A stretch of 29,844 nt of DNA from Candidatus Fermentibacterota bacterium (GCA_016928395.1 JAFGKV010000006.1:1-29844), one strand, 5' to 3'; positions 1,293 through 22,024 are shown, counted from the stretch's first letter. A program made the numbers and translations. The notes: generated by a model not told the origin, from the letters alone.

Positions 1293-2147
1293 ATGTTCGC
1301 CATACGCTCATCGATCCGCTTCGCAGCCATCGTCATCCTCGGCCTGCCCTGTATGAGCAGCGGCGCTCCCGCCGATTACGTGAACTTCACGGCCGCCGAC
1401 TCTGCCGGTCTGGCGGGTGTCACCGTGGAGCGTTTCTTGTTCCGCAGCGGTCTTGAATGCCCATACACTCTGATACGTCACGGCGATGGAGAGGTCAAGG
1501 GGTTCCTGGTCTTGCTCCATGGCGCCGGTGACAATCCCACCAATTTCACGAAAATCGCGACCCGCCTCGGTCTGCGCGGCATGCAGCATATCCTGCCACG
1601 GGCGCCTTTCCCCATGAGCATTCGTCTTCCCGATCCCCTCACCGGGCGAGAGGAGTCATTTGCGGGGTACGGATGGCTCGACGATCCGACCAGCCCCTGG
1701 GTCGACCGGGGGACCGCACTCTCGGCCTTCACGGTGGGCTCCATCATCGATGAGGTGCGCCCTGCCCATGCCGAAGGCCCTCCTCTCGTGCTGGCCGGGT
1801 TTCGGCAGGCCGCGGGCATCGCGGCCCTGTGGGCGGCCGCCAATCCCGGGCGTGTGCAGGGGCTGGTACTCGTATCAGGGTATGCGGAGCCTCCCGTGCA
1901 GGAGGCACTGGCCGCCGGAGGGAGGGGGCTCGCCCTCCAGGATATGCCGTGTCTTGTCTTGATAGGAATCGACGCGCCCGACGCGGTCGACAGCGGCGAT
2001 CTCGCCGCAACGGTCCGAGATCTTGGTGCCCGTATTGAGCCGCACTTCGTGGCCCGGGGCGCGGACTTCAGTGAACTAGACTACGGGCTCATCCGTGCCT
2101 TTGTCGAGCGATGCACTGGCGCCATCCCTGCGGCGGAAGACCGGTGA
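1293..2147 (+). CDS. Secreted alpha/beta hydrolase-fold protein, catalytic Ser and His lost
   Basis: 284 residues, resembling the phospholipase/carboxylesterase family of alpha/beta hydrolases. A hydrophobic N-terminus (about residues 9-25, ending near SSGA) looks like a signal peptide, suggesting export. The oxyanion region is present (LLHGAGDN, from residue 74), as is the family stretch with LPRAPFP and the GYGWLDD block. The nucleophile elbow, normally GFSQG, reads GFRQAAG with Arg171 in place of Ser. Near the C-terminus, where the family has a Gly-His, the sequence reads GADFSELDYG with no His. The protein is therefore probably not a classical esterase and may be a binding or scaffold derivative. 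It opens the operon, has a good ribosome binding site, and its stop overlaps the start of the lipid kinase (TGATG). The fold is fairly certain; the function is not. Confidence 0.85.
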   Translation: MFAIRSSIRFAAIVILGLPCMSSGAPADYVNFTAADSAGLAGVTVERFLFRSGLECPYTLIRHGDGEVKGFLVLLHGAGDNPTNFTKIATRLGLRGMQHILPRAPFPMSIRLPDPLTGREESFAGYGWLDDPTSPWVDRGTALSAFTVGSIIDEVRPAHAEGPPLVLAGFRQAAGIAALWAAANPGRVQGLVLVSGYAEPPVQEALAAGGRGLALQDMPCLVLIGIDAPDAVDSGDLAATVRDLGARIEPHFVARGADFSELDYGLIRAFVERCTGAIPAAEDR

Positions 2148-3058
2148 TGGCGGCGCGACACCGCGTTGTGGTAAATCCCTTCAGTGGTAATGGGCACGGG
2201 CGTCGCATCGGCACGTTGCTGCCCGGCATTTTTGCGCGATTGGGCCTCACCGCCGAGTTTCACGAGAGCAGCACTGCCGAGCACTTCAAAGCCCTTGTCG
2301 GCGGCAGGCCGGCCGAGCCCGGAGAGCGTGTGGTGATCTGCGGGGGCGATGGCTCACTGAACATGGCGCTTTCGTGCGTCACGCCCGGCACCAGGCCGGC
2401 ATTGGCTCTGGTGCCCTGCGGTAGAGGAAATGACGTGGCCAGAAGCCTCGCCATCCCCGCCCATCCCGATGGCGCCGCCGCAGTGCTGGCCGAGGGTCGT
2501 GAACGCGCGATGGATGTCGGCTATGTGAACGACCGGCCATTCGCATCCATCGCTGCCATGGGCTTCGACGCCCTGGTCTCCTTGGCCGCCTCCAGGATGA
2601 GGCGAGTGAAGGGCCGTATGGTGTATGTCATAGCGGCGATCAAAGAGCTGGCTCGGTTCCATCCACCCTTATTCACCATAGAGAGCGACACGTTCACCTT
2701 CCAGGGTCGCGCGATGATGGTATCGGTGGCCAACTGCCCCTACTACGGCGGCGGCATGATGCTGTCGCCGGATTCCAAGATGGACGATGGTCTTGTGGAA
2801 ATCTGCGTGGTGCTGCCGATGTCCAAGCTCGGCCTGTTGCGGATGCTACCGAAGTTGTTCACGGGCGGCCACGTTGACTCGCCCTACTTTCTGATCGCGT
2901 CCGCGCAACGAGCCACCATCGGCTGCGATCCCGCCGTGCCTATCTGTGCCGACGGGGAGTATCTGACCATGAGCCCCGCCACGATCCGCATCGAGCCTGC
3001 CGCCGCGACCGTTATGGTTCCGCCAATGGGGATCTCTGCAGGAGCACCGACCCCGTGA
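2147..3058 (+). CDS. YegS/diacylglycerol-kinase-like lipid kinase
   Basis: 303 residues, the normal size for bacterial lipid kinases of the DAGK catalytic family, which transfer phosphate from ATP to diacylglycerol or related lipids on the inner membrane face. Visible motifs are NPFSGNG near residues 10-16, the nucleotide-binding GGDGSLN (66-72) and PCGRGNDVAR (90-99), corresponding to the family's GTGND with Arg in place of Thr. The last third matches the beta-rich second domain (DSKMDDG, ICADGEY). The ATG at 2147 overlaps the preceding stop, and the frame is open 12 codons further upstream; I prefer the overlap start because homologues begin close to the VVNP strand. Its own stop overlaps the GTG of the next gene by 4 bp. 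In this setting it may act on a lipid linked to the glycan pathway, but that is inference. Confidence 0.88.
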   Translation: MAARHRVVVNPFSGNGHGRRIGTLLPGIFARLGLTAEFHESSTAEHFKALVGGRPAEPGERVVICGGDGSLNMALSCVTPGTRPALALVPCGRGNDVARSLAIPAHPDGAAAVLAEGRERAMDVGYVNDRPFASIAAMGFDALVSLAASRMRRVKGRMVYVIAAIKELARFHPPLFTIESDTFTFQGRAMMVSVANCPYYGGGMMLSPDSKMDDGLVEICVVLPMSKLGLLRMLPKLFTGGHVDSPYFLIASAQRATIGCDPAVPICADGEYLTMSPATIRIEPAAATVMVPPMGISAGAPTP

Positions 3059-6000
3059 TCAGCCCGATGATGCTGTGCATCGCCTTGGCAGGTGAATCAC
3101 TGCCTCCGGTGATCAGCGTGATCCCGAGCCCGCCGGATCGGGTGATCCTTGAGGCACATTGGGAAACCGTATCGATAGCCCGCGATTCCTCTGGCCGGCT
3201 TCGAGTGATCGCGCCTAGTTTGGCCTATGCCATGCCGGTGGGCTCTCCTGATCTCCCTCATGGGGCAGTGGCCGTTGCCCTGCCTCCCCGAGGCGACTAT
3301 GAGGTGAGCGCGTTCCCATCGGGAGTGACATCCCACACCGGGCTCATCGCCGCGGTGGATGATACCCTCAGGACGGGGACCATGCGCGTGCCGCAGACCT
3401 GGCACGCGGTGACCGCCGAGGGCTGGCTGCGGCATCAGCGCATGATGGAGCTGACTCTGTTTCCCGCGATCCCAAGCCCGATGGGGCTCAGCACCGCACG
3501 GCGGGTTCGGGTGGAGATTCGGTTCACCGACATCGGAATCGGAGGGGGAACTGTCAAGGAAGAGCCCTCCTTCGAGGCCGTGTACCGGGTGGCGGTGAAT
3601 CACCAGCAGGCAACCGCCTGGCGGGCGACGCCCCCGGTGACGCTGCGGCGAGATCCCGTTTTGCCACCGGAACACGCGGTGAAAGTCTACGTTGACCGGC
3701 GGGGAATCACCGCCCTCTCCGGCGCCGATATGGAAATCGCCGGCATCGATATCTCCACGGTCGACCCATCAACATTACGCCTCACCTGCCGGGGCGAAGA
3801 TGTTCCGTACGCGTTTACTGGACTCGGCACACACATCCTCTCCCCCACTGACTCCCTGCTCTTTTTCGGGCATCCCAACTACCGTGCCGACGAAGGCTGC
3901 CGCCTGGTTGACTGGTGGGATCACTTCAGTGCCGCCAATGTCTACTGGCTCTCATGGGGGGAGGCTCCAGGGATACGTTTCACCCAACGCCCGGCCGCGC
4001 CGTCGGGCGCGCATCCCGTGGTGGAATGGCACGCGGCTGTTGCGCACGCCGAACAGGACCTGCTGGCCTTCCTCAGCAATGAGGGCGACGCGCCATGGCC
4101 TACCGAGTGGTATTGGCAGAGATGGAGCGCCGGCACGCAAGGGGTCACAAAGGACTTCACCGTGGTGGTGGATTCTCCGCGACCGACCCAGAGCGCTCTC
4201 CTGCTGCGCGCGTCACTGCACGGGTACTCCAATCTGAGCGGCGTACAGTGGCAGTATCATACGACATTCGCGCTGAACGGCAATCCCCTGGGTGATGTGT
4301 ACTGGGGCCAGTGGAACGGGCGGGTGCCGTTCTGTTATGACAGCCAGCAGCAGGGAGACCTGATCCAGGCGGAGTGGATACAGCAGGGCACCAATACGTT
4401 CGCCGTGCGGCTGCTGCCGGACATTGACCCGGAGAAGGGGCCGCTCAGCACCGCCTATTTTGATTCGTGGAGCCTCCGGTATGACCGCATACTGAAAGCC
4501 GTTCAGGATACTCTGGAATTCGAGGCCCCGCCGGGAACCGGCGCGGGAATGAGAACCTTTCGAGTCCAGGGCGTCTCCACGGCGGACGTGGTCTTGTTGG
4601 ACATGGTGCGCCAAGAGCGGCTGATTGGCGCCGATCATATCGGCACGACCCTGACCTTTGAGACCAGCGTTGCTGACTCGACGCGGTTTGCCCTGGCCTC
4701 CCGGGCCCGGCTTGTCCAGCCGCTCAAGATCGTCAAGGAGCGGCCAGCGGATCCGCCGCTGTCTTCGGGAGACGCACAGGCTGCCTACCTGATCATCTCC
4801 TATGACCGGGAAGAGGCGGGCGATGCGGATCCCTATCACAACCTGTTTGATGCGGCAATCAACCTGGCTTTGGCCAGAGATGCCGTCGTGCCCACCAGGG
4901 TTTTTGACGTGCAGGACATTTACGACGAGTTCAACTGGGGAATCATCGACCCTGAGGCCATCAGGGATTTCCTGAAGCATGCGTTTTCCACGTGGAGCCT
5001 CGTCCCGCCCGAGTATGTGCTCTTCTTCGGAGACGCTTCGTGGGACTACTTGGGGCGATCAGGCCCCACGGCCAAGAAGAGCTTCGTGCCATGCTGGGGC
5101 TATCCCATCTCCGAGAACCACTTTGTCGAACTCTCCGATGGCGACTTCTTTCCCGATCTCCATATCGGTCGCCTGCCGGTGGAGAACTCGTTCCAGGCGG
5201 ACAATGCGGTGGCCAAGGTGCTGGCCTACCCGGCGCCGTACCAGGAAGACGAAACGTGGCGGAAACGCGCCCTCATGGTAGTGGGAGGATTCACTGACTC
5301 CGAGCAGACCATTTTCGAAAGCCACGCCGAAAGTATCCTGACCGGCTATGTACTTCCTGCGCCTTTCCTCGGGGACCCCAGCCGGGTCTACCGCAGCCTG
5401 ACCGGCTATCAGCCGGGCTACTACAACCAGCGGATCGTGGACGCCATCAATGACGGGTGTGTGGCGCTGAACTACATCGGCCACGGCGCCGCACTCACCT
5501 GGGGTATCATGTTCGACGTCACGGATGTCGGCTCACTCACCAATGATCTCTCGCTTCCCGTTACCATGGGCCTGACCTGCAACTCCAATGCCTTTGGCGA
5601 ACCTGACACCAGTTGCCTCGGCGAGGTGTTCCTGCGCCTTGGAGATCCGGCCCACGGCGCCATCGCCTCGTGGGGGGCCACCGCCCGAGCCAATGAGTAT
5701 TCGGCCTGGCGCGGATCCCTGGCGTTCTTCCAGGCCCTCTGCATTGATCTTGAACGTCGCGTCGGGCCTTTGACTACCGCAGGCAAGATCGCAGGCGGCT
5801 CATCGGTGTGGACCATGTTCTCGCTCCTGGGAGAACCCCTGGTGGAGTTGCCGGTACCCACGGGCCCTGACCTTGTGATCAATGAGGACAGTCTCTCAGT
5901 GACGCCCTCCGTGGTGGGAGAGAACCATGATGTCGCCATCGATGTCGTGGTGGAGAACCACGGCAGGGCCTCTCCGGAACAGGTAATCGTGCGGTTCGCC

Positions 6001-9000
6001 GCCGGCCCCGAGGGAAGTTCCTCAGAGATCGCGGCGGTGTCCGACACGTGCGGCATGCGGCGCCGGAGCCCGTACACGGTCACATGGAACACCGGCGCGG
6101 GCCTGGGACCGCGCATTGTCTCTGCATCCGCTGATCATCTTGACGTGATGGCCGAGTTGCGGGAAGACAACAATGTGGCGACGCTGCCGTTTGAGGCGCT
6201 CCTGGCGCCGCCCTCGGTGGCGGCCCCCTTCGATTGCCAGGTGAGCACTACGGCCTCGGTGTGGCTCACCGTGAACAACCTCCCGGGGCAATCGACGGGG
6301 CGCACCTATGAGTTCCAGATCGCTCGTACGGACAGTTTCACTCCTTCATCACCAGGCTTCGCCAGTTCCGGCGCGGTGAGCCAGCAGCAGGGCTCTACGG
6401 GCTGGTCTCCGCTGGGCCTGATGCAGGGGACGACGTACTTCTGGCGATGCAAGGCCATGGAGGGTTCCTTTGACGGCGCATGGTCGCCCACGGCAAGTGT
6501 CACCATTGATACCACCGCATCCGGCACGGTCTGGGCACAACGGCATGGCGCCCAGTTTGCGGCGGATTCCCTGGCCCAGCTCGTCGTGGACCGCGAGCTG
6601 CACACCGTGGTGCTGCGCGCCCAGGTGAATCCGACCGACTATGCCCACGTGGATCAAGGCGCCACCGTACCCTTTGTCTCCAGCTACATGACGCAGCCGT
6701 ATACAGACCCCCTGAATCTCATTGGTGAGGATATCGGCAGCGGCGCCGGCCAGTACGGCCAATTCCTGTTCGCCAACAACGACTACGCGCAGGAAGCCCT
6801 CATCGATCTCGGTCAAGAACGAACCATTGGAATCGTGGGATCCGAGCACTGGATCGGTCTGGACGACAGGCCGGTCTGGTCTTTCTACCGGATCAGTTCT
6901 TCCTTGAACAATGTCGATTTTGAAGAGTGGGGAGCGCTGGGCCCCTACACACTGCCCAGTCTGGGCAATGTGCCCACGCCCATGTTCTTCTCGGTGGAAA
7001 CACCCCGCCCGGTGAAGTTCCTCCGGTTCCAGTTCGGACAGGGCCTCCCCCACCCCTTCCCCGGCGGTGCATTGTGGGGATCCCGGATCTATGAGGTGTT
7101 TGCCTATGCAGTGGATTTCTTGCCCTCCGGCACGCTCACCTCCTCCGCAGCAGGCCCCGCTGCCTCTTGGCAGCAGGCGACCTGGGATGCCGACATTCCA
7201 CCGGGGGCATCCTTTACCGTCACCGTGCTTTCCTCATCCACCGCGACGGGCCAGTTCCTTCCGGTTCAAGGCCTGGGTGGTTTGAGTGCCTCCCCCGTTG
7301 ATCTGAACGCAATCACGGATCCCTACGTGAAACTTGTCGGGACCGCCTCCACCACCGATCCGCGAGTGACACCAGCGTTGCACCAGTGGCGCCTCCGGTT
7401 CCAAGGAGGCGTGGATATGGCGTTCAGGGGCGGGCTCTCGGTGACGCCGCCTCTTCCGCCCGCAGGGAGTGTGGCCCAGATCGGCGGTGTGATGGTCAAC
7501 CAGGGTATCTCCACGGCCGACACGGTGCGCTTCCTGCTGCGCGATACGACGACGTCGGCCGCTGTTGACATCATGGATACCCTGCTAATCGGGCTTCAAC
7601 CGGGAGCAGTCTGGCAGTTTGCCGTGCCCTGGTTGTCAACGATCGGGCGGCACACCGTCACGGCATCCGCCGAGGTCCGTGGAGGGGCTCCTGAAGTGGC
7701 GCCGGGAGACAATGAGGCCGCGGTGGAAGTCGTAGTGCTTCCAGACCCGGCGTGCCTGGCCCTCAGGGCTGTTACGCCCCAACCCCAGCAGTATGGCGCC
7801 TTGCTTCTGGAGGGGATCATCGGCAACCAGGGATCCGTCTTGACCGATTCGGTGCCCTGGGTGCTTGAGAGCAAGGGCCCGGACGCGGCGGCTTTCGTCG
7901 CTGTGGATTCGGGGGCCACGGGCTTCGTGACACCGGGCGAGAGCATCGCGGTGGCCATCCAGTGGCCCCCGCCGCGCACTCCCGGGATGCATGATCTCCT
8001 CTTTGCCGTGGCATACTCCGGCGAACAGGTCAGCATCGCCAATGATACGGTAGAGATCAGCATACGAATCGCGGGGGCCGCTGATCTTGTCATCGATTCC
8101 CTCGCATTCTCCAATAGCCAGCCTCCTGCCGGTGACCCGGTGGGGGTTCGTCTGCGTGTCCTCAATGCCGGCGAAGCAGGCGTCGATAGTGTTTTCCTCG
8201 TGCTCTTCCACACTCCCCCCGGGGGAGATGAAGCAACGTTGGCGGTATGGGAGCTCAGTGTGGAGGGGGGGCAGGCCCGCGCCATGGAGGCGACCTTTGT
8301 CACGTCCGGTCTGCCGGGGCTGCACCGCATTCGGGCGGTAGCGGACCCGGATGACGTGATCCCGGAGGCCGACGAAGGCAACAACAGCAGAGCCGATTCG
8401 ATCACCGTACTCAGCGGCGCCGACCTGCTGTGTACGGGGCTGTCCCTCGCACCCCTGCCGGTGCTCACTCGCGACACCGTAGTAGCCTTCGCCACCGTGC
8501 GGAATGCCGGAGAGATCGCCGTCGGATCCTTCGAGCTCGCGTGGGAAGCAGCGGAGCTTCGCCTTCTTGCTGGTGACGGCACAGTAGGTGGCCTGGATGG
8601 AACATCAGAGGAGCAGGTATCCGCCACCTTTCTTGCGCCGTCTGTGCCTGCGGAGGGAGTCATACGCCTGATGATCGACGCGCCGGACAGCGTCGAGGAG
8701 ACCAACGAAGGGAACAATGTGGCGGAGAGCGCGGTGGGCATTGTGGCCGAGCCTGACCTGGCAGTTCGCAGCGACGAGGTCCGATTTGATCCTTCGGCAC
8801 CCACCGAGGATGATACCGTGGCGGTACGCTTTGTGGTCCGCAATAGCGGGGGAGCGCCCAGCGAGGAGTTTCTCGTTTCAGTCGCCCACCGCCCCGGCGG
8901 ATCCGGCGCGTGGACCGAGTTCTTCGCCAGCACCTTCAGCTCCATTGCCCCCGGTGGGTTCGCGGAGGGCCACGCAGCATGGATTGCAGACGACTACCGC

Positions 9001-9699
9001 CTCACCCACTGGTTTTGCGTTACCTGCAATCCTGACTCTGCGGCCCGGGAGCGTCGGCTTGACAACAACAGCGCCGAGCGATCGTTGATCGTGAGCCCGA
9101 AAGACCGCGACCCGCCCGTCATTACCCTGGCCGTGGCCTTGCCCGGCTTCGGCGATTCGGCCTGGGTGCCGCCCATGGTGCCGGTGATCTCCCATCTGAC
9201 GGATGCGGAAACCGGCATCGATACGGCCAGCGTGACGGTCTACGTTGATGATGAAACCTACCCCGTCACGCCCGTATGGCAGGTCGTCGATCCCGGGTTA
9301 CGTCTGGAGACAACGGTTGGTCCGTTGGCCCCCGGCCTGCACGCCCTTCGTCTTGAGGGGGCAGATCAGGCAGCCAACCGCGGCGTCAGCCCGACAGTGA
9401 TGGTCACCGTGGCGGAGGAGGCAGCCGGCATCAGTCTCGTGGCCATGCAACGCGATCATCTAGACGAGACCGTGTTCGTGGTGCGGTGCGCGTTCGAGGA
9501 ATCGGCGGAACTCGGTGTGTACACCGTATCGGGTCGGCTGCTGATGCGCTGGGGCGGGGAGATCGCACCCCCCATGACCATGGTGTGCTGGGATCGCCGG
9601 GATCGCGACGGTGACCGGGTGGCCAACGGCGTCTACTTCGTGCGGGCGGAGACCCAATCGGGCCATCGGGCAACCACCACCATGGCCCTCCTTCGCTAG
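3055..9699 (+). CDS. Giant gingipain-like C25 protease with CARDB repeats and C-terminal sorting domain
   Basis: 2214 residues from a GTG at 3055 (AGGAG 10 bp upstream; ATGs at 3067 and 3070 are alternatives). The N-terminus is only weakly signal-like. The order is: a beta-rich pro-region with a 'VDRRGITAL ... VYWLSWG' block (about 210-298) typical of C25/PorU-like proteins; the peptidase C25 domain (about 577-935) with His810 in YIGHGA and Cys842 in GLTCNS, the expected dyad; a CARDB module (about 936-1049); an Fn3-like module; a discoidin-like domain (about 1161-1354); a beta-sandwich; five more CARDB-like modules (about 1453-2014); an Ig-like module; and an FlgD/type IX-like tail (about 2123-2214) ending MALLR. 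It is probably an exported, surface-attached cysteine protease with Arg- or Lys-type specificity possible but not readable here. It sits in the polysaccharide operon just before a shorter paralogue. Confidence 0.9.
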   Translation: MISPMMLCIALAGESLPPVISVIPSPPDRVILEAHWETVSIARDSSGRLRVIAPSLAYAMPVGSPDLPHGAVAVALPPRGDYEVSAFPSGVTSHTGLIAAVDDTLRTGTMRVPQTWHAVTAEGWLRHQRMMELTLFPAIPSPMGLSTARRVRVEIRFTDIGIGGGTVKEEPSFEAVYRVAVNHQQATAWRATPPVTLRRDPVLPPEHAVKVYVDRRGITALSGADMEIAGIDISTVDPSTLRLTCRGEDVPYAFTGLGTHILSPTDSLLFFGHPNYRADEGCRLVDWWDHFSAANVYWLSWGEAPGIRFTQRPAAPSGAHPVVEWHAAVAHAEQDLLAFLSNEGDAPWPTEWYWQRWSAGTQGVTKDFTVVVDSPRPTQSALLLRASLHGYSNLSGVQWQYHTTFALNGNPLGDVYWGQWNGRVPFCYDSQQQGDLIQAEWIQQGTNTFAVRLLPDIDPEKGPLSTAYFDSWSLRYDRILKAVQDTLEFEAPPGTGAGMRTFRVQGVSTADVVLLDMVRQERLIGADHIGTTLTFETSVADSTRFALASRARLVQPLKIVKERPADPPLSSGDAQAAYLIISYDREEAGDADPYHNLFDAAINLALARDAVVPTRVFDVQDIYDEFNWGIIDPEAIRDFLKHAFSTWSLVPPEYVLFFGDASWDYLGRSGPTAKKSFVPCWGYPISENHFVELSDGDFFPDLHIGRLPVENSFQADNAVAKVLAYPAPYQEDETWRKRALMVVGGFTDSEQTIFESHAESILTGYVLPAPFLGDPSRVYRSLTGYQPGYYNQRIVDAINDGCVALNYIGHGAALTWGIMFDVTDVGSLTNDLSLPVTMGLTCNSNAFGEPDTSCLGEVFLRLGDPAHGAIASWGATARANEYSAWRGSLAFFQALCIDLERRVGPLTTAGKIAGGSSVWTMFSLLGEPLVELPVPTGPDLVINEDSLSVTPSVVGENHDVAIDVVVENHGRASPEQVIVRFAAGPEGSSSEIAAVSDTCGMRRRSPYTVTWNTGAGLGPRIVSASADHLDVMAELREDNNVATLPFEALLAPPSVAAPFDCQVSTTASVWLTVNNLPGQSTGRTYEFQIARTDSFTPSSPGFASSGAVSQQQGSTGWSPLGLMQGTTYFWRCKAMEGSFDGAWSPTASVTIDTTASGTVWAQRHGAQFAADSLAQLVVDRELHTVVLRAQVNPTDYAHVDQGATVPFVSSYMTQPYTDPLNLIGEDIGSGAGQYGQFLFANNDYAQEALIDLGQERTIGIVGSEHWIGLDDRPVWSFYRISSSLNNVDFEEWGALGPYTLPSLGNVPTPMFFSVETPRPVKFLRFQFGQGLPHPFPGGALWGSRIYEVFAYAVDFLPSGTLTSSAAGPAASWQQATWDADIPPGASFTVTVLSSSTATGQFLPVQGLGGLSASPVDLNAITDPYVKLVGTASTTDPRVTPALHQWRLRFQGGVDMAFRGGLSVTPPLPPAGSVAQIGGVMVNQGISTADTVRFLLRDTTTSAAVDIMDTLLIGLQPGAVWQFAVPWLSTIGRHTVTASAEVRGGAPEVAPGDNEAAVEVVVLPDPACLALRAVTPQPQQYGALLLEGIIGNQGSVLTDSVPWVLESKGPDAAAFVAVDSGATGFVTPGESIAVAIQWPPPRTPGMHDLLFAVAYSGEQVSIANDTVEISIRIAGAADLVIDSLAFSNSQPPAGDPVGVRLRVLNAGEAGVDSVFLVLFHTPPGGDEATLAVWELSVEGGQARAMEATFVTSGLPGLHRIRAVADPDDVIPEADEGNNSRADSITVLSGADLLCTGLSLAPLPVLTRDTVVAFATVRNAGEIAVGSFELAWEAAELRLLAGDGTVGGLDGTSEEQVSATFLAPSVPAEGVIRLMIDAPDSVEETNEGNNVAESAVGIVAEPDLAVRSDEVRFDPSAPTEDDTVAVRFVVRNSGGAPSEEFLVSVAHRPGGSGAWTEFFASTFSSIAPGGFAEGHAAWIADDYRLTHWFCVTCNPDSAARERRLDNNSAERSLIVSPKDRDPPVITLAVALPGFGDSAWVPPMVPVISHLTDAETGIDTASVTVYVDDETYPVTPVWQVVDPGLRLETTVGPLAPGLHALRLEGADQAANRGVSPTVMVTVAEEAAGISLVAMQRDHLDETVFVVRCAFEESAELGVYTVSGRLLMRWGGEIAPPMTMVCWDRRDRDGDRVANGVYFVRAETQSGHRATTTMALLR

Positions 9700-9708
9700 G
9701 GTATTCCC

Positions 9709-12700
9709 GTGTGGGTCGTGATGCTGGTAGCTGCCGCGCTGGCAACGGCCGATGAGCCGAGACTCCTGTGGTCAAGCCCCCAGGCGGCCCAGTTCGTGGT
9801 TGAGGCGGACACGGCCTCCATTCTGCGCGTGATCCGCGCTGGTGTCCCCTGGCCGGGCACACCGGTGCTGGTGGCTACCTCTGGTCCTTCTCGAGTGGAA
9901 TGGACATCCACCGAAGCCCCCATGGCTTTGGCTCTTCCCGACACCGCCACGGCCTGTGAGCTTGCTCCCGTGGCCGCCATCGAGGGTGAAGGGTTTTTTC
10001 GTTCACAGCACGTGAGTCGAGTGCTGGTGCAGCCGCTGCAGCGTGGGCGCGAGGGCTGGGTGCTGTACGGCCATGTGATCGTGACTGTCACCTTCCCCCA
10101 CGGAGACAGGCCGCGTGCCGGTACACCTGATCCGCTTATCGCCGATGTGCTGGCGCCGCTGGTCATCAACGGCCCTCTGCAGCCGACGGGCCCCCGAACG
10201 CGTTCGCTTCGCGAGATTTCGCCACCGCCGGAACCGTCGTGCAAGATCGTTGTGGATCACCGGGGACTCTATGCAGTCACCTGGGATGACCTCGTCGCGG
10301 CGGGGGTGAACATGGGCATTGTTCGCAGCGCCAGCCTGCGCCTTTGGTATCATGGCGTAGAGCAGGCGTTTCTGGTGAATGATGGCGGTGACGGCAGATT
10401 CGGCCCAGGCGATTCCATGGTGTTCTTCGGTGATGAGCGGTTCAGGGACAACCCGGCCGGTCGGAGAATCGACTATGTGAGCCAGTACTCCCGCGAGGCA
10501 ACGTACTGGCTTTCATGGGGAGGGGGTGACGGCCTACGATGGACCATAACCGATGCAACTGCCGGGGCTGGTGACCCTGCGGCGCCATGGTACTGGGAGT
10601 GGGTTCACGCTGAACAGGAGAATGTTGAGTTTGTCGGCACCCACAACGAGGCATTCAACAATGAGATCGAGTGGTACTGGCAGCAGCTAAATGCCAGTAC
10701 CGTCACACGGGAGTTTGCTGTCTTTGTGGATGAAATCGCCGCGGCGGATAGCTTCGTTCTTCGGGTGGGCCTCCAGGGTGGCTCGACGGGGGTTGGCCAT
10801 CACTCCCAGTTTTTTGTCATGGGAACTCAGGTCGGCGAGTCATGGTGGGGAGATGTCTCCGGCCGGGAGGCCTTGGTGTTCGACAGCGCCGACTCGGGCA
10901 TGGCACTGCCCGTGGCTTTGTTGAGTACTCCTGCCACCACCATCGGCCTCAAGGAACTACCCGACGGTCCCTCAGGCTCCGGCGCCTACAGTTTTCTTAA
11001 CTGGATCGAAATAGGCTACCCCCGCGGCCATGTCGCGGGAGGGGGCATTCTCGGATTCGCCGGCCCCCAGGGCTCGATGGGTGAACGGTACCGTTTCGGC
11101 GTGCGGGGTTTGACCGATGCAGATGTGTGCCTGGTGAACGTCACCCGATCCCAATGGCTTACGGGCTCCGCCATGAGCGGCGACACGTTGCTCTTCTCCG
11201 CTGACGCGGGCATGGATGACCTCATCTGGTTGCAGCATGATGCCGTTGCCGATTCAGTTGTGTCCATCGTGCCATATCAGGCCGTGGATCCGCCACTGGA
11301 CTCCTCTCAACGGGCCGCAGACTACATCGTGGTGACGCATCCGCTCCTTTCGGCCTCTGCCGACACCCTGGTTGCTCTGGCTGGTCAGGCCCACGGGCTT
11401 CGATCTGCACGCGTCGATGTCTACGATCTCTACGACAATTTCTCCGGAGGAGAGCCGCATCCCGATGCCGTCAGGGACTTCCTTGTGTGTGCCTTCGAGA
11501 ACTGGGCGCCTCCCGCCGTGTCCATGGCAGTGCTTCTGGGCGATGCAAGTTGGGATTTCCTTGGGGTGTCCGGTCCTGAGGCGCAGGCTAATCTCGTGCC
11601 AACCTGGGGCAATCCGGGGAACGACTTCTACTTCACCCGGCTGACCCATGACGGGTCGGGTACCTATGACTGGATACCCGATATTGCCGTGGGGCGGCTT
11701 GCCGCGCGGAGCGAAGACGAGGCGCGGGTCATGGTGAATCGCGTGGCAGTCTATCTTCGCCAGAACCACACGGCCAAGGGTCTGCTGTTCGTGGCCCACG
11801 GCAGCTCCGACTGGGAGCATCAGAGCTTCGCGAGCCTCTCGAACACCCTGGCCGAGCAAGGAGTTCCCTCGGAAATGCTGGCTATCCGCGATACCGTGTA
11901 TGCCGATCCTGAAGGGACTCCCGGTGCTCGATGGTACAAGGACGATTTCGTGAATGCGCGGCGGCGCGGACCGCTGTTGGTGCATTTCATGGGCCGGGGA
12001 GACTTCTATACCTGGTGCATGGAGTCGCACACCACCCTGCCCGATACCCTCGTCCAACCACTGCCTCTCCCGTTCCTCATAGGTGGCTCCTGTCATAGCG
12101 GGCGATTCGCCATGCCGGACAGTTCCTGCCTGGGCGAGGTCGAACTCCGCGCCGCACTTCCTGGTGCGGGCTCCATCGGGATCGTCTCTAGTACGGGTAT
12201 CACTTCCATTGGCCAGGCCTATGTGTGGTCACAGTATGCACTCACGGGGCTATTGTCCGGCCAGCCGGTGGGCAACGCCTATCTGGCGGGTGTGCTTTTC
12301 GCCGGGAGTTTTCTCGCGCAACGCTACATCCTTCTGGCAGACCCCGCATTCGCCCTGGCGCGGCCCTCACTCCCCGACCTGACGGCGCCAGAAGGATGGT
12401 TGACGGTAGACCCCCCCGAACCATCGGAAGGTGATCCCTCATCGTACCTCCATGCCATACTCTCCAACGATGGCTGCGCTGCGGATGCATCCCACGATTC
12501 ATGCTGGGTCGTGTTCTCCGATAGCAGTGCATCGGGGGTAGGGTCGCTGGGCCAGTTTCGGGTCGGGCTGCCCGTGCAGCGGGACACAATGTTGGTGCTG
12601 CCGTGGATTCCGCCGCCGGCCAGGGGCCTGCACCGCATCTCGGTGACTATCGATGCAGACAATGAGATCCACGAGTCCGACGAGACCAACAATGGAGCCG

Positions 12701-13890
12701 CCTGCGACGTCGCCGTCTTTTTCGACGCACCCGAGCCCTCTGCGCCATCGGATGGCGGGCTGATCCGCCACGCTGTCCAACTCGTGGTCGCCAGTATCCC
12801 GGGTGAACCGAACGTGTCGTACCGATTCCAGGCCGCCGCTGATCCCCGGTTTGCTTTCGACGAGACTTTGTACGACTCCGGCCTGCTGCCTGCCGGGGAG
12901 TACTACACGACGGCTACACCGCCGCCTCTTCCAGAACGAACTGCCCTTTATTGGCGGTGCAGAGCCGAGGATGGCGACATCCCCGGGGCGTGGTCGCCGG
13001 TGATGTCTTTTGAGATCGATCGCCTGGCGTCTTCCGGCGGATGGCGGCAACGGCACTGGGGTCAGTTCGTGGCTGATTCGCTCCTGCAATGCAGGGTGGA
13101 CACGGTGCAGTCCCTGGTGCGGTTAGCGACGTCCATGGGCGCCGACGTCGCCCTGGCGGATTCCGGCGCAACCGTGGTCTCCACATCCAGCGTGTATCCT
13201 GGCTCGAGTCCTGCCAAGCTCATCGGCCCCGGGTTCTTCCTCTTCGGCAACAATGATCTGGATCAGACGGCGACAATAGACCTGGGCAGTACCCGTACGT
13301 TGACCGCCGTGGGCGCCGAAGTGTGGGCCGGCGCCATGGACAGAGGCGTGTGGTCCTTGCTGGAGCTGGCCGGCAGCGTCGACGGCTCCGGCTATACCTC
13401 CTGGGTATACTACGGCGAATTCCCCCAGCCCAACCTTGAGATCCCGGCCAGGATCCACGTAGTCCTGGATAGTCCGCACCAATCCCGGTATATTCGCGCC
13501 CGATTCGGCGCAGGATGTCCTCACCCTGAGGCGCTGTGGGGTTCCCGTATCTACGAGGTGTATGCGTTTCCTCTCGTCCGGCCGGATGACGGCCGCGTGA
13601 TTGGCCCGATGGTGGGTCCGGCCGCTTTCTGGTTGGAGTGCATGGCCGAGGCCCTGATCCCACAGGCCCGTGATTCGGTGCTGGTGACCGTCGCGGGCTA
13701 TTCGGTCTCTCATCTGGCCTGGGAGCCTATTCAGGGCTTCATTGATCTCCCTGCGCCGGGATCCTGGTCGTTGGGTACGATCAATCCCGACGCCTATCCC
13801 TGGCTTCGGATGGAGGCGTCCCTCCGGGCCGGCGATGAGGGCGAAGGCCCCGCGCTGACAGCATGGAGTGTTTTCTACGCACCACGATGA
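9709..13890 (+). CDS. C25-family paralogue with catalytic His replaced by Arg; no sorting tail
   Basis: 1393 residues from GTG 9709 (GTG 9718 and ATG 9721 are alternatives); the N-terminus WVVMLVAAALATADE is a plausible short signal peptide. It follows the previous gene by 9 bp and parallels its first two thirds: the pro-region block 'VDHRGLYAVTW ... TYWLSWG' (about 182-270), the C25 domain (about 538-888), one CARDB module (889-1004), Fn3-like (1005-1104), a discoidin-like domain (1105-1290) and a final beta-sandwich ending FYAPR. The extra CARDB modules and the FlgD-like tail of the larger paralogue are missing. In the active site Cys795 is kept (GGSCHSG), but the GHG motif reads GRG with Arg763. 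The spacing from that residue to Cys is 32 in both paralogues, so the alignment is exact. Proteolysis is therefore unlikely; a structural or regulatory partner of the upstream protease is the simplest reading. Confidence 0.9.
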   Translation: MWVVMLVAAALATADEPRLLWSSPQAAQFVVEADTASILRVIRAGVPWPGTPVLVATSGPSRVEWTSTEAPMALALPDTATACELAPVAAIEGEGFFRSQHVSRVLVQPLQRGREGWVLYGHVIVTVTFPHGDRPRAGTPDPLIADVLAPLVINGPLQPTGPRTRSLREISPPPEPSCKIVVDHRGLYAVTWDDLVAAGVNMGIVRSASLRLWYHGVEQAFLVNDGGDGRFGPGDSMVFFGDERFRDNPAGRRIDYVSQYSREATYWLSWGGGDGLRWTITDATAGAGDPAAPWYWEWVHAEQENVEFVGTHNEAFNNEIEWYWQQLNASTVTREFAVFVDEIAAADSFVLRVGLQGGSTGVGHHSQFFVMGTQVGESWWGDVSGREALVFDSADSGMALPVALLSTPATTIGLKELPDGPSGSGAYSFLNWIEIGYPRGHVAGGGILGFAGPQGSMGERYRFGVRGLTDADVCLVNVTRSQWLTGSAMSGDTLLFSADAGMDDLIWLQHDAVADSVVSIVPYQAVDPPLDSSQRAADYIVVTHPLLSASADTLVALAGQAHGLRSARVDVYDLYDNFSGGEPHPDAVRDFLVCAFENWAPPAVSMAVLLGDASWDFLGVSGPEAQANLVPTWGNPGNDFYFTRLTHDGSGTYDWIPDIAVGRLAARSEDEARVMVNRVAVYLRQNHTAKGLLFVAHGSSDWEHQSFASLSNTLAEQGVPSEMLAIRDTVYADPEGTPGARWYKDDFVNARRRGPLLVHFMGRGDFYTWCMESHTTLPDTLVQPLPLPFLIGGSCHSGRFAMPDSSCLGEVELRAALPGAGSIGIVSSTGITSIGQAYVWSQYALTGLLSGQPVGNAYLAGVLFAGSFLAQRYILLADPAFALARPSLPDLTAPEGWLTVDPPEPSEGDPSSYLHAILSNDGCAADASHDSCWVVFSDSSASGVGSLGQFRVGLPVQRDTMLVLPWIPPPARGLHRISVTIDADNEIHESDETNNGAACDVAVFFDAPEPSAPSDGGLIRHAVQLVVASIPGEPNVSYRFQAAADPRFAFDETLYDSGLLPAGEYYTTATPPPLPERTALYWRCRAEDGDIPGAWSPVMSFEIDRLASSGGWRQRHWGQFVADSLLQCRVDTVQSLVRLATSMGADVALADSGATVVSTSSVYPGSSPAKLIGPGFFLFGNNDLDQTATIDLGSTRTLTAVGAEVWAGAMDRGVWSLLELAGSVDGSGYTSWVYYGEFPQPNLEIPARIHVVLDSPHQSRYIRARFGAGCPHPEALWGSRIYEVYAFPLVRPDDGRVIGPMVGPAAFWLECMAEALIPQARDSVLVTVAGYSVSHLAWEPIQGFIDLPAPGSWSLGTINPDAYPWLRMEASLRAGDEGEGPALTAWSVFYAPR

Positions 13891-13918
13891 CGCCCCAGGG
13901 CGAGAAGAGTAGGAGTGC

Positions 13919-14719
13919 ATGCTTTTTCGAACGAATCCATTGAACGAGTTTTACGAGTACCGCGAGCTCCTGCTGAACCTGGTGGCCAAGGAGTACAAGG
14001 CCAAGTACAAGGGCACGGTCTTTGGCTTCCTGTGGAGTCTTGTCGTACCCTTGATCATGGTGGGCGTCTACTGGTTCGCCTTCGGCTACCTCATGCGAGC
14101 TCCCATCGAGGATTTTCCGGTCTACCTCCTCTCTGGCCTGCTCCCCTGGACCTTCTTCTCCGGAAGCCTGATGGGCGCCGTGAGCTCCATCAGCGCCAAT
14201 GCCAGCCTGATCAAGAAGATCTACTTTCCCCGGGAGATTCTCCCCATATCAACCGTCTTGTTCAATCTAGTTCATTTCCTGTTGAGTTTCGTGATTCTCT
14301 TCCCCGCTCTGGCGATTTTCGGGCGGCCCATTCGTCTGGAGCTCTATCTCCTACTGCCCCTGGTGCTCATCGTTCATCTCGCCTTGACCTGTGGTGTTGC
14401 GTTGTTGGTGGCCGCGTGGAATGTCTTTTTCCGGGACGTGCAGCATCTGCTGGAAGTCCTCCTCATGGCATGGTTTTTCATGACGCCGATCATCTACGCA
14501 TACGACCAGGTGAGCGGGGCGCTTCGGGGCCCGCTCCTCCTGCTCTACAACCTCAACCCCATGGTTGGGGTGGTTGAGCTCTACCACGCCATCCTTTACG
14601 GCGCCCGGTTCCCTTCGCCCATGTCCGTGGCTCAGAGCATCGGTTCCGCCGCCGTGTGGCTGGTAGTTGGCTTGGTCGCGTTCAAACGGGTCGAGCCCAG
14701 ATTTGCTGAAGAGATCTGA
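13919..14719 (+). CDS. wzm: ABC-2 type polysaccharide exporter permease (Wzm-like)
   Basis: 266 residues, the usual size for Wzm/KpsM/RfbD permeases that move lipid-linked O-antigen or other polysaccharide across the inner membrane. The N-terminus EYRELLLNLVAKEYKAKYKG is the amphipathic interface helix typical of this group. About six membrane spans follow, with the conserved loop block KKIYFPREILP between spans 2 and 3 and NPMVGVVELYH near the last span. AGGAG at 13911-13915 lies 3 bp before the ATG. The gene begins 28 bp after the second C25 gene and stops 1 bp before the ATPase gene, so all are probably co-transcribed. The family assignment is secure; the exported glycan cannot be read from this gene. 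Confidence 0.95.
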   Translation: MLFRTNPLNEFYEYRELLLNLVAKEYKAKYKGTVFGFLWSLVVPLIMVGVYWFAFGYLMRAPIEDFPVYLLSGLLPWTFFSGSLMGAVSSISANASLIKKIYFPREILPISTVLFNLVHFLLSFVILFPALAIFGRPIRLELYLLLPLVLIVHLALTCGVALLVAAWNVFFRDVQHLLEVLLMAWFFMTPIIYAYDQVSGALRGPLLLLYNLNPMVGVVELYHAILYGARFPSPMSVAQSIGSAAVWLVVGLVAFKRVEPRFAEEI

Positions 14720-14720
14720 C

Positions 14721-16457
14721 ATGAGCCACATCGCCATCCGGTTCGAGAATGTATCTAAGCGCTTCCGACTCTATCACCAGAAACACTACTCACTCAAAGA
14801 GAGCGTGTTGAACCTCTTCCGGGATCGCGGGCGCTGGGAGGAGTTTTGGGCTCTGAAGGCCATCGATATTGAGGTTCCTGCCGGACAGATGCTGGGTATC
14901 ATCGGCGAGAATGGTTCCGGCAAGTCCACATGTCTCAAACTGCTGGCCAGGATCCTGGTGCCCGACACCGGCTCCGTGACCGCTCAAGGGTCAGTCTCGG
15001 CGCTCATAGAGCTGGGCGCCGGGTTTCAACCTGACTTCACGGGTCGTGAGAATGTCTATCTCAATGGTTCGATCCTGGGGTTCACCCGCAAGGAGGTCGA
15101 TGAGCGTTTCGATGATATCGTGCGCTTTGCCGAACTGGAGAGGTTCATCGATACTCCCGTGAAGACCTACAGTTCAGGCATGTACATGCGGCTGGGCTTT
15201 TCCATCGCCACCCACGTGGATCCCGATATTCTCCTTATCGATGAAATCCTCGCGGTCGGGGACGAGCCCTTCCAGGAGAAGTGCCTGGAACGTATCCAGC
15301 AGTTCCGCCAGGCCGGTAAGACCATCGTCTTCGTATCACACGCGTTGGGTGCGGTGGAGAATCTCTGTGACCGCGCCGTGCTCCTCTCCAAAGGCAGGCT
15401 GGTAGCTGATGCCCTCCCCGGCGAAGCCATCGAGTGCTACCGACGCATCCTGGGAATGGCCACCCAAACCCAGGTGCTTACCCCAATGCCGAGTCCTGAG
15501 CACGCCAGGTCTTTTGCGACTGAAGGGGAAGACCTTCAGCAGCAGGTCCGCACCCTCTGCGAGCGTATGGATTGGCTGGACCGCCGGATTAGCGCGCCGA
15601 TGTCAGTGGAGAACGCCTTCCAGAGGATTGTACAGCTTGAGACTAGCATGGGAGTCGTGCACCGGCAGGGCGAGACTCGAGATCAGGCGCTTCGCGACCT
15701 GAACGCCAAACATGCGGCGCTGGAGGGACAGCTTGCCGCGACCGGGCACCGAGAAGTCACCTCGAGCGGACAAGGCCTTTCAGAGGCGGGTGTGGTCGGC
15801 GCCGAGCTGCCTGAGAGGCTCGCATGGCTGGAGCGCCGCATAAGCGGCCCCATCTCCGTCGAGAATGTGCAGGAGCGCCTTGTGCAGCTCGAGGACACCA
15901 TGGGGGTGGTGCATCAGCAGGACGCGACGCGCGACGGCGCGCTGGGGGATCTGACCTCCAGGATACTCCAGCTTGAGAGCAGGATTGCCACCTTCTTGGC
16001 CGAAGGCACTGCAATGGTGCCCCGGCAGTATGGGACCAGAGCGGTTGAGCTCGTTGACGTAGTATTCTTCAACAGCGATGGCAAGGAGACAACGCATTTC
16101 CGAAGTGGCGACTCCTTGGTGATTCGCATCAAGTACAGGGTGAGATCATCGGTGCGCACCCCCGTGGTCGGGATTGCCTTCGCTGACCAGCGCGGAGCCG
16201 TCGTTTTCGGCAGCAATACCCAGATAGACGACACCGCGGCAGACCTTCGCGGGAATGGCGAGATTGAGATCGTCATCACGCGTCTGGTGCTGCTCGCGGG
16301 CCTGTTTTACGTTACCATCGCGGCCCACTCCGCAGATCACGCCGTTCAGTACCATCGGCTGGAAAACTGCTATAGCATCCAGGTTGAACCCCGTCGGGGT
16401 TTCGACGGCAAGGTCGATATGGAGTGTCGTTGGCGCGTGGTGGCCAACCGGGAATGA
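14721..16457 (+). CDS. wzt: ABC polysaccharide exporter ATPase with carbohydrate-binding tail (Wzt-like)
   Basis: 578 residues from the ATG at 14721, one base after the wzm stop. The ATPase domain (1-235) has Walker A GENGSGKS (62-69), the signature YSSGM (about 140-144), Walker B LLIDEILAVGD (161-171) and the switch His197. This is the TagH/Wzt branch with the linker FQPDFTGRENVYLNG. The last 140 residues (about 438-578) form a beta-rich domain like the Wzt C-terminal domain, which in E. coli O9a binds the capped non-reducing end of the glycan before export. Unusually, the linker contains a 58-residue coiled-coil-like segment duplicated at 281-338 and 365-422, making the protein much longer than typical Wzt (about 400-450). 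This long spacer lies next to two genes that are themselves largely coiled coil. Confidence 0.95.
   Translation: MSHIAIRFENVSKRFRLYHQKHYSLKESVLNLFRDRGRWEEFWALKAIDIEVPAGQMLGIIGENGSGKSTCLKLLARILVPDTGSVTAQGSVSALIELGAGFQPDFTGRENVYLNGSILGFTRKEVDERFDDIVRFAELERFIDTPVKTYSSGMYMRLGFSIATHVDPDILLIDEILAVGDEPFQEKCLERIQQFRQAGKTIVFVSHALGAVENLCDRAVLLSKGRLVADALPGEAIECYRRILGMATQTQVLTPMPSPEHARSFATEGEDLQQQVRTLCERMDWLDRRISAPMSVENAFQRIVQLETSMGVVHRQGETRDQALRDLNAKHAALEGQLAATGHREVTSSGQGLSEAGVVGAELPERLAWLERRISGPISVENVQERLVQLEDTMGVVHQQDATRDGALGDLTSRILQLESRIATFLAEGTAMVPRQYGTRAVELVDVVFFNSDGKETTHFRSGDSLVIRIKYRVRSSVRTPVVGIAFADQRGAVVFGSNTQIDDTAADLRGNGEIEIVITRLVLLAGLFYVTIAAHSADHAVQYHRLENCYSIQVEPRRGFDGKVDMECRWRVVANRE
15561..15734 (+). 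repeat. Wzt linker duplication, copy 1
   Basis: Codes for 58 residues (Wzt 281-338) starting ERMDWLDRRIS. It aligns without gaps to copy 2 with 33 of 58 identical residues by my count. The segment is helical in character with a VQLE and GVVH core. Confidence 0.88.
15813..15986 (+). repeat. Wzt linker duplication, copy 2
   Basis: Codes for 58 residues (Wzt 365-422) starting ERLAWLERRIS, the same length as copy 1 (174 bp each). A 26-residue spacer separates the copies. Confidence 0.88.
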
Positions 16458-16465
16458 GGTGAGTG

Positions 16466-17173
16466 GTGAATGAGATCCACCCCGCCGACGAACTGGATGT
16501 GCGGGAGATTCTGCGTGCCATCCGGGCCGAGGTCTCCGCCCCGACGCAGGAATCTGCGGAGCCATCCTCGGTGACGCACCGTGATTTGGAGATTCTGCGG
16601 TCACACCATGATGTGCGGCAGTATGATCTCTCCACGGAGCGGTCTCTTGGGCCCCTGGTGGTGGGTGCCAAGAAACTCGTCGAAGCGGTGGTGCGCCCGT
16701 ATGCAGGGCACTTCCTGGACAAGCAGGCCCATTTCAACGCAGCTCTCCAGCGGGTCGTCTCTCAGCTTCTCTCCCAATTGGAGGGCATCAACCAGCAGTT
16801 GGCGACAATCCAGAAGGACCAGCAGGCTTTGCAGCAACTGATTCGAAACGATATGGATGATCTCCGGACGAGGCTGGAGCGTCTCCGGGGAGAGATGGCA
16901 CAGCGGCACCAGAGCCTTCACACGGCCTTGCACGCGGGCCTGGAGGAGCAGGAACGGCTGTTTGCAGAGCGGGAGGCCGCCACCAGCAACGAACTGCAGG
17001 CCACCGCCATCGGGCTTCATCATGGTCTGTCGGAGGCTGTTGATCGTCTCCAGGCCAGGCTCTCCGACGTTGAGAAGAAGTCTCTTGAAAGCCAGAAGGA
17101 TATGCAGGATCGTCTCTCCAAGGAGATCGCCGCAGTCGTTGATTTCATCGAAGAAGTGCTGCCGGTGCTGTAG
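16466..17173 (+). CDS. Coiled-coil protein of the polysaccharide export locus
   Basis: 235 residues from GTG 16466 (GTG 16463 is one codon earlier), with GAGGTGAG just upstream. There is no signal peptide, so it is probably cytoplasmic. The N-terminus DELDVREILRAIRAEV is an amphipathic helix of a type often seen at the start of coiled-coil methyltransferases in glycan clusters. Residues about 55-110 (LGPLVVGAKKLVEAVVRPY ... DKQAHFN) resemble the helical block that precedes the coil in that family. From about residue 100 to 230 the sequence is an almost continuous heptad-like coil rich in Gln, Glu, Leu and Arg. No catalytic domain is present. It may be the detached front half of a family in which helix, coil and methyltransferase are one polypeptide, the methyltransferase being the next gene. 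The assignment to the locus is good; the biochemical role is inferred. Confidence 0.85.
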   Translation: MNEIHPADELDVREILRAIRAEVSAPTQESAEPSSVTHRDLEILRSHHDVRQYDLSTERSLGPLVVGAKKLVEAVVRPYAGHFLDKQAHFNAALQRVVSQLLSQLEGINQQLATIQKDQQALQQLIRNDMDDLRTRLERLRGEMAQRHQSLHTALHAGLEEQERLFAEREAATSNELQATAIGLHHGLSEAVDRLQARLSDVEKKSLESQKDMQDRLSKEIAAVVDFIEEVLPVL

Positions 17174-17200
17174 CCATGAGGCGGCGAGCCAGCTTGCCTA

Positions 17201-17206
17201 AGGAGG
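17201..17206 (+). promoter_or_regulatory. Shine-Dalgarno site fixing the methyltransferase start
   Basis: AGGAGG lies 5 bp upstream of the GTG at 17212. It favours this start over the in-frame ATG at 17176, which has no comparable site. Confidence 0.75.
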
Positions 17207-17211
17207 ACAAC

Positions 17212-20782: not shown

Positions 20783-22024
20783 ATGCGGTTCCTCATTGTG
20801 ACGCCGCTGTACTGGCCGGACAGCTCAGGCGCGACTAGGCTGCTGCAAGGGTATGCAGAGGGGCTTGCGGCCAAAGGGCATACTGTCGAGGTGTGGACCA
20901 CTGAAGCCGCGGAGAACAGGGCGCTGTACTTTGCTTCGGCGGCGCGGGTCTCCGTACGACAGACTATGCACGGGGGGGTGGGCATCCGGCGCTTCCGTTT
21001 GTGGCATCCAGCACACAAGGCGCAGTCCTTTGGCAAGGCGTTCCGGCTGCCGATGCCCGGGTCGGGGTATGCCTTCGACGAGCCCCATGTAACCTCGCTG
21101 GGTCTGCTCCGGGCCGCCTTCCTCTGGCGCGGCCGGTTCGACATGGTGCTGGCCGGCTATCTTCCGTTTACTGCTTTCATCTACGCGGGTTCCCTCGTAG
21201 CCAAGCGCCATGGGATTCCTCTGGCAGTCCTGCCGCTTCTCCATCTGGGAGAGCCCAGCGATCACACCCTGCTGGCCTCGTTCGGCCGGCCGTTGCAACG
21301 GAGGGTTCTCCACATGGCAGACATCCTGCTGGCCAATACCGACGTCGAGGTCGCCGCCCTTCGACAATGGGGAATAGAGCCTCGGCGGGTCGCTGTCGTT
21401 GGCGCCGGGATCGATCCCTCTACCCTGCAGGACGGCGTTGCCCACCGCTTCCGGAGGCAGTACGGGCTTCGGCACCCCATAGTGTTTCAGGTCTCGACCC
21501 AAACCCACGACAAAGGCTCTCATCATCTGGTGGAGGCAATGAAGCAGGTGTGGGCCACCGGGACGGAGGCACACCTGATCTTGGTTGGCCGCGTCCTCCC
21601 TGATTTCGATGAGTATTTCTCCCAACAGCCCAGGGAAGTCCTGGAGCGTGTAGTGTGCACGGGCCATCTGGGCGAACAGGCCAAGGCTGATTTGCTGGCC
21701 GCAGGAGACGTGATGGTCATGCTTTCCCGGGCGGAGAGTTTTGGCATCTCCTATCTGGAGGCCTGGTGGTACGGCAAGCCCGTCGTGGGCAGCTATGCTG
21801 GCTCGCTTCCCGCACTGATCTGGGATGGTGTTGATGGGTTCCTTGTCCCGTTTGCGGATGTGCACATGCTGGCGGAGACTCTGGTGAGATTGCTCACCCG
21901 GCCCGACTTGCGCGTCCACATGGGTGAGGCGGGCAGATCCAAGGCGCGTTCGTCGTTCTTGTGGCCCCAGCGGTTGGACCGTCTGGAGCGTGCGCTCTAT
22001 ACCGTGGACGGTAGGAAACGATGA
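20783..22024 (+). CDS. GT4 family glycosyltransferase
   Basis: 413 residues, typical size for GT-B retaining glycosyltransferases of family 4. The N-terminal Rossmann half starts LIVTPLYWPDSSGATRL, the acceptor-side motif. The C-terminal half contains FQVSTQTHDKG at the linker strand, then the nucleotide-sugar motif with E-x7-E in ESFGISYLEAWWYGKPVV. The ATG at 20783 is three bases after the upstream stop, and the gene overlaps the next by 4 bp (ATGA). It presumably adds a sugar to the lipid-linked glycan; the linkage cannot be predicted from sequence. Confidence 0.93.
   Translation: MRFLIVTPLYWPDSSGATRLLQGYAEGLAAKGHTVEVWTTEAAENRALYFASAARVSVRQTMHGGVGIRRFRLWHPAHKAQSFGKAFRLPMPGSGYAFDEPHVTSLGLLRAAFLWRGRFDMVLAGYLPFTAFIYAGSLVAKRHGIPLAVLPLLHLGEPSDHTLLASFGRPLQRRVLHMADILLANTDVEVAALRQWGIEPRRVAVVGAGIDPSTLQDGVAHRFRRQYGLRHPIVFQVSTQTHDKGSHHLVEAMKQVWATGTEAHLILVGRVLPDFDEYFSQQPREVLERVVCTGHLGEQAKADLLAAGDVMVMLSRAESFGISYLEAWWYGKPVVGSYAGSLPALIWDGVDGFLVPFADVHMLAETLVRLLTRPDLRVHMGEAGRSKARSSFLWPQRLDRLERALYTVDGRKR

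Follow-up and report, generated by a model that had tools for sequence, protein, structure and literature searches.

Two adjacent genes for PorU-like C25 proteins, C25A (3055..9699, + strand) and C25B (9709..13890, + strand), lie within an operon for a polysaccharide exported by an ABC transporter, in a bacterium outside the Bacteroidota whose gene content indicates type IX secretion (T9SS), and a second genus of the family keeps the same arrangement. The window analysed is a whole contig of 29,844 bp (C327) from a Candidatus Fermentibacterota genome (G000) of 343 contigs, which is 94% complete. In Porphyromonas gingivalis PorU cuts the C-terminal domain (CTD) from secreted cargo and links the cargo to A-LPS, its own CTD remaining uncleaved (PMC11285876, PMC7468200). 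Several FCB phyla other than Bacteroidota may also have T9SS (PMC11285876), and the anchoring of its cargo outside Porphyromonas and Tannerella is hardly known. The explanation we favour, at somewhat less than an even chance, is that C25A would be a T9SS sortase dedicated to the glycan of this operon, with C25B as a non-catalytic periplasmic partner.

Structure of the operon

The sequence-only reading of this DNA placed both C25 genes, wzm and wzt on a single strand, with gaps of 9 bp between the C25 genes, 28 bp before wzm and 1 bp between wzm and wzt, and each gap proved exact to the base. The operon starts upstream of C25A with a gene for a secreted alpha/beta-hydrolase-like protein (1293..2147, +), assigned from sub-threshold Pfam matches to Hydrolase_4 and Abhydrolase_2 and an alignment of three orthologues, followed by a syntenic gene for a lipid kinase of the YegS/diacylglycerol-kinase family (2111..3058, +; Pfam YegS_C and DAGK_cat, TIGR00147 above cut-off). 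C25A opens with a GTG codon that overlaps the kinase gene by 4 bp (3055-3058) and encodes 2214 aa, with a PF01364 Peptidase_C25 match of 196 bits; C25B, also read from GTG, encodes 1393 aa and matches the same family at 146 bits. The ABC-2 polysaccharide export permease gene wzm (13919..14719, +; PF01061 ABC2_membrane; NF050109 galactan export Wzm at 79 bits, below cut-off) has its ATG at 13919 and its stop ends at 14719; wzt (14721..16457, +) has its ATG at 14721, an earlier start given by the ORF lister being a TTG at 14667. It encodes an ABC ATPase (PF00005 ABC_tran) with a C-terminal carbohydrate-binding Wzt_C domain (PF14524), the sole Wzt_C match in the genome. It had been allowed that the C25 genes might have a promoter of their own; in the C25A-C25B and C25B-wzm gaps promoter-like matches are near chance level, and neither gap holds a terminator-like site.

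Beyond wzt the same operon continues with a coiled-coil protein lacking any Pfam family match (16463..17173, +; 41% identical in the second genus), a protein combining a coiled coil with a SAM methyltransferase (17176..18702, +; Pfam Methyltransf_11/23 at 305-456, SMC-like coil matches) and three syntenic glycosyltransferase genes, namely a GT2 with an N-terminal extension of ~230 aa (18689..20779, +; PF00535; 51%) and two GT4 (20783..22024 and 22021..23166, both +; PF00534; 66% and 69%). A small probable lipoprotein follows (23206..23691, +), its translation having a lipobox-like LHC/LGC after the signal peptide and a syntenic orthologue at 62%, and the operon ends at ~24992 with a polytopic membrane protein (23772..24992, +; syntenic, 52%), possibly a GT-C enzyme, which matches NF047440 (putative glycosyltransferase family) at 33 bits, below cut-off. 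No gene for a linking sugar (Wbp/Vim-like) was recognised in the operon. Beside it, on the opposite strand, is a gene for a secreted repeat protein with a T9SS C-terminal sorting domain (27789..29786, -; Por_Secre_tail at E=2.5e-4, just below cut-off; TIGR04183 at 17 bits), a predicted T9SS cargo.

The O8 and O9a antigens of Escherichia coli are O-polysaccharides of the ABC-transporter type, made with Wzm, a Wzt carrying a carbohydrate-binding module (CBM) and WbdD. The present operon resembles theirs in its Wzm, its Wzt with Wzt_C, its coiled-coil methyltransferase of variable coil and its several glycosyltransferases; we know of no C25 protein, lipid kinase or hydrolase in the O8/O9a operons. 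The methyltransferase at 17176-18702 is joined to a long coiled coil, as in a WbdD-type terminator, and coil length varies between the genera (proteins of 508 and 382 aa), which makes it a candidate chain-terminating, or capping, enzyme like WbdD; a WbdD-type kinase domain was not matched there. Together, the coiled-coil methyltransferase and the carbohydrate-binding Wzt suggest a capped, length-controlled chain comparable to those of O8/O9a. The coiled-coil part differs by >100 residues between the two genera, as would be expected if it set chain length.

In the hydrolase-like protein at 1293-2147 the nucleophile Ser is replaced by Arg (GFRQ for GxSxG) in all three species of the phylum, and it is probably a pseudo-enzyme, the second conserved apparent one in the operon.

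Conservation across the phylum

Three searchable genomes represent the phylum: that of the window, one of the same genus (G001) and one of another genus in the same family (G002). The submitters' names of the latter two, 'Candidatus Eisenbacteria' isolate Prado127 and 'Candidatus Fermentibacteria' isolate CSMAG_2897 respectively, disagree. All window genes except that for AOR are found in G002 in identical order and orientation at 41-73% protein identity, with 12 bp between C25A and C25B and 33 bp between C25B and wzm; because the block is collinear there, the gene order is more than chance. In G001 the block is divided between two contigs, xerC-hydrolase-kinase-C25A and C25B-wzm-wzt, the C25A-C25B junction coinciding with the contig ends and the C25B-wzm gap again being 28 bp. 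The wzm orthologues are 86% and 73% identical.

Synteny extends to the flanking xerC and sorting-domain genes. The latter is cut by the window end at 29844, and contig C151 (L303) of the same genome has its first ~240 residues, that is, the 5' part of 27789-29786; since both contigs appear to hold parts of one gene, and from the order in G002, C151 probably continues the window to the right. It adds two further genes, a 605-aa cargo, a PorV paralogue, a 1279-aa sorting-domain-like protein and an outer-membrane-receptor-like protein, as in G002, where a PorV paralogue and sorting-domain proteins likewise adjoin the block. The AOR (aldehyde ferredoxin oxidoreductase) gene at 25244-27223 comes after the glycan operon and before the sorting-domain gene; in G002 no such gene was found there.

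The two C25 proteins

C25A matches the PorU model NF033707 at 200 bits (cut-off 420), residues 206-936 aligning to model positions 5-736 in a match that spans both the N-terminal region and the catalytic domain, and the C-terminal part of the model matches at 9094-9678. The protein aligns to gingipain and PorU structures through the catalytic His (GHG) and Cys (TCNSN), both of which are kept in C25A of all three species, and finishes in a sorting-type domain (DGDRVANGVYF...ALLR) of which DGDRVANGVY is common to its paralogues. C25 fold, His/Cys pair, conserved N-terminal region and a sorting-type domain of its own are thus shared with PorU, and the genome, like those with PorU systems, encodes SprA and PorV-family proteins; C25A is unlike PorU in its score, its length, which is about twice as great, its CARDB Ig repeats (Pfam) and its Wzm/Wzt operon. 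Against the PorU2 model NF052324 it scores 176 bits, under the cut-off of 450.

The NCBIfam PorU cut-off of 420 is reached by no gene of the phylum. Five genes of the window genome are PorU-like (C87, C59, C262, C25A and C25B), and because the best PorU match is C87, a gene of PorU-like size that scores 289 bits, C25A is not necessarily the general sortase of this genome. Another PorU-like C25 gene has a GT2 gene directly upstream in both genera (L168:10523-11605 on G000:C59 and L169:11970-13085 on G002:C18) and is thus the phylum's second PorU-like gene linked to glycan genes.

C25B scores 149 bits with NF033707 (cut-off 420), over the N-terminal region and the catalytic domain, and 142 bits with NF052324 (cut-off 450). 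In all three species its catalytic His is replaced by Arg (GRGDFYTWC) and the Cys kept, and the aligned orthologues have no sorting domain, the protein ending ahead of it. Among 75 aligned PorU-like proteins from many lineages the Cys is present in every one and the His in 72, the exceptions being only the three C25B orthologues. That both genes encode active sortases is ruled out by the missing His. A His four residues earlier (LVHF) is unsupported as a relocated catalytic residue, because the proteins of locus L299 have the LVHF His in addition to the normal one.

Decay of C25B is also ruled out, by a frame open in both complete copies (that of G001 is cut by a contig end) and by a dN/dS against G001 of 0.156. 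The value for C25A is 0.158, and although synonymous sites are near saturation and both ratios are rough, their near equality indicates equally strong constraint on C25B and C25A. In the shared alignment columns C25B is 51.0% and C25A 52.6% identical to the G002 orthologue, and the two are sisters in the tree with moderate support (0.70). AlphaFold models of the C25B halves are too poor to serve as search queries (pLDDT 57 and 46) and lend no structural support to the favoured explanation. The PorU-likeness originally ascribed to the pair therefore applies to C25A, in its domain order, intact dyad and sorting-type C-terminus, but has to be qualified for C25B, which has neither the His nor the sorting domain.

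Type IX secretion in the genomes

SprA and PorV genes, a search for which had been proposed, were both found. SprA/Sov is over the cut-off in all three genomes (463 bits combined in G000), the PorV family is over the cut-off at about nine places in G000 with 16 matches in all, and type A sorting domains number 72, 56 and 70 in the three genomes. On these components, SprA/Sov, many PorV-family proteins and 56-72 sorting domains in each genome, the host appears to be a T9SS bacterium outside the Bacteroidota. The Bacteroidota model of GldL/PorL had no match in the three genomes, in a search that had no positive control and gave no match anywhere. The earlier proposal of a version of T9SS outside Bacteroidota is supported by SprA, the PorV family and the sorting domains; C25A itself stays well short of the PorU cut-off. 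With 23 C25 matches, of which a minority are PorU-like, and 16 PorV-family matches, G000 may have several parallel PorV/C25 branches of T9SS.

PorU-like genes in glycan loci of another phylum

In a second phylum, sampled by 82 genomes, PorU-like genes are present in 62 at E <= 1e-40. We compared 40 PorU-like loci with 20 control windows from the same genomes, using GT2, GT4, WecA, Wzx, UDP-glucose dehydrogenase and Wzm as neighbour queries. Counting all groups, 26 of the 40 loci have a glycan gene <=6 kb upstream on the same strand, and 29 have any glycan match; none of the controls has any (Fisher p = 2e-8 for 29/40 versus 0/20, a value that overstates independence, many loci being orthologous).

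At least three different glycan-gene arrangements surround these genes. The association is closest in a long group (~1750-1950 aa), for which 17 of the 18 loci with usable flanks are next to glycan genes. One of its subgroups has the order Wzy-GT2-GT4-GT4-WecA (PF00953)-PorU-like-epimerase, with the PorU-like gene directly downstream of the glycan genes, and another has Wzx ... GT2-GT4-PorU-like. By comparison, a clade of PorU size (~1340 aa) is next to glycan genes at one locus in seven, and around the PorU-like genes of two other lineages, G057 and G289 (PorU2), no glycan locus was found. Linkage to every PorU-like gene is thereby ruled out, and because the G289 and G057 genes stand outside glycan operons, the linkage is a property of some PorU-like lineages only. 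On one side of the tree stand the long group, the G057 group and the home phylum's four genes, and the node uniting them carries no support value after midpoint rooting; the long group with G057 has support of 0.998 and the PorU-size clade of 1.0.

Nor is Wzm/Wzt the general partner, a rule excluded by the finding of no wzm at any of 60 loci examined outside the home phylum. The adjacency of the C25 pair to wzm/wzt, which was to be checked in relatives, is thus seen in G002 and, with the block split over two contigs, in G001, and was seen in no other phylum, while the wider tie between such genes and glycan loci recurs in the second phylum but with partners of Wzy, WecA or Wzx type. For A-LPS synthesis P. 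gingivalis requires a homologue of Wzx together with Wzy and Wzz, and its LPS genes are mostly scattered (PMC3684754).

NCBI already has models for PorU2 and PorV2, and the wider family is therefore known to its curators. NF052324 is named 'putative type IX secretion system sortase PorU2', and our literature search found no paper describing it. One long-group relative, encoded in a glycan operon (L238), scores 393 against the cut-off of 450; in the sole genome over that cut-off, G289, PorU2 is preceded by a PorV-like gene and is not accompanied by a glycan operon.

In a third PorU-like clade (~1630 aa; L248:13255-14268, L253:5608-6669) a PorV2-like gene comes after the PorU-like gene, and most loci have UDP-glucose dehydrogenase and GT4 genes 3-7 kb away.

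Function of the C25 pair

Under the explanation we favour, the operon would build one surface glycan, its GT2 and GT4 enzymes feeding the ABC-transporter route; the coiled-coil methyltransferase would probably cap the chain and Wzm/Wzt, with its glycan-binding domain, export it. C25A would cross the outer membrane through SprA by means of its own C-terminal domain and, acting as a PorU-like cysteine transpeptidase, would cut the sorting domain off T9SS cargo and link this cargo to the glycan or glycolipid that has been exported. Having no sorting domain, C25B should remain periplasmic, most likely as a non-catalytic partner that binds or hands over the glycan, or binds C25A.

Next after this explanation, and rather doubtful, is that the two C25 proteins are secreted surface proteins of an ordinary kind, a protease and a pseudo-protease or adhesin co-expressed in an envelope operon, neither acting as a transpeptidase nor using a glycan as substrate. 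Most of the 23 C25 matches in the genome are not PorU-like, C25A is far longer than PorU and its CARDB repeats are typical of adhesive surface proteins, and both proteins are below the PorU cut-off, all of which would suit such a role. However, upstream glycan genes on the same strand accompany only PorU-like C25 genes, being absent from all 14 regions around non-PorU-like C25 genes in G000; the match of both proteins to the PorU profile takes in the N-terminal region along with the catalytic domain; and a like pairing recurs in another phylum.

It is unlikely that the pair instead modifies or attaches the glycan itself, as periplasmic or surface anchors (for example, with the polymer ligated onto C25A or a carrier protein) without any general sorting of cargo. 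The position next to wzm/wzt and the lipid kinase would fit this, as would a C25B that is probably periplasmic, where the polymer emerges, but C25A has the sorting-type end expected for surface delivery, and the genome encodes many potential cargoes. We think it improbable that the genes stay adjacent through passive inheritance of synteny in a single small phylum, without functional meaning, for although only three genomes sample the phylum and the flanking xerC and sorting-domain genes are syntenic too, tight same-strand spacing is kept at ~50% protein identity, the neighbours of another PorU-like gene (C262/C10) have nothing in common between the same genomes, and related genes in another phylum stand in glycan operons of different make-up.

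Taking the sortase reading beyond this phylum, we tentatively suggest that a clade of glycan-dedicated PorU-like sortases may exist outside the Bacteroidota, each in the operon of its own glycan (Wzm/Wzt here, Wzy/WecA elsewhere), such that a single cell could fix separate sets of cargo to separate glycans; here the sortase would be joined by a conserved non-catalytic periplasmic pseudo-sortase. A precedent is provided by the exosortase/PEP-CTERM system (EpsH), in which a protein-sorting transpeptidase is likewise encoded in exopolysaccharide loci (PMC1569441), although exosortases are integral to the inner membrane and recognise a different signal, whereas here the enzyme is of C25 type and the signals are T9SS sorting domains. 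Should the linkage be functional, gene neighbourhood would directly predict the glycan used by a PorU-like enzyme, in the way that exopolysaccharide loci led to the exosortases. If the sortase reading is true, the locus would represent a second way in which Gram-negatives anchor proteins to glycans, one encoded in an operon, and C25B would be a conserved pseudo-sortase. The component parts are of known kinds and the arrangement is provisionally new: in an incomplete literature search we found no description of a sortase-like enzyme with a dead twin in a Wzm/Wzt operon, nor, with the same proviso, of PorU-like genes tied to glycan operons in the other phylum.

Tandem PorU-like genes also occur outside the phylum. 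At L299:7460-13576 (G217) two lie 12 bp apart, both members intact in His and Cys and with no recognisable sorting domain, and G130:C259 also has two in a row.
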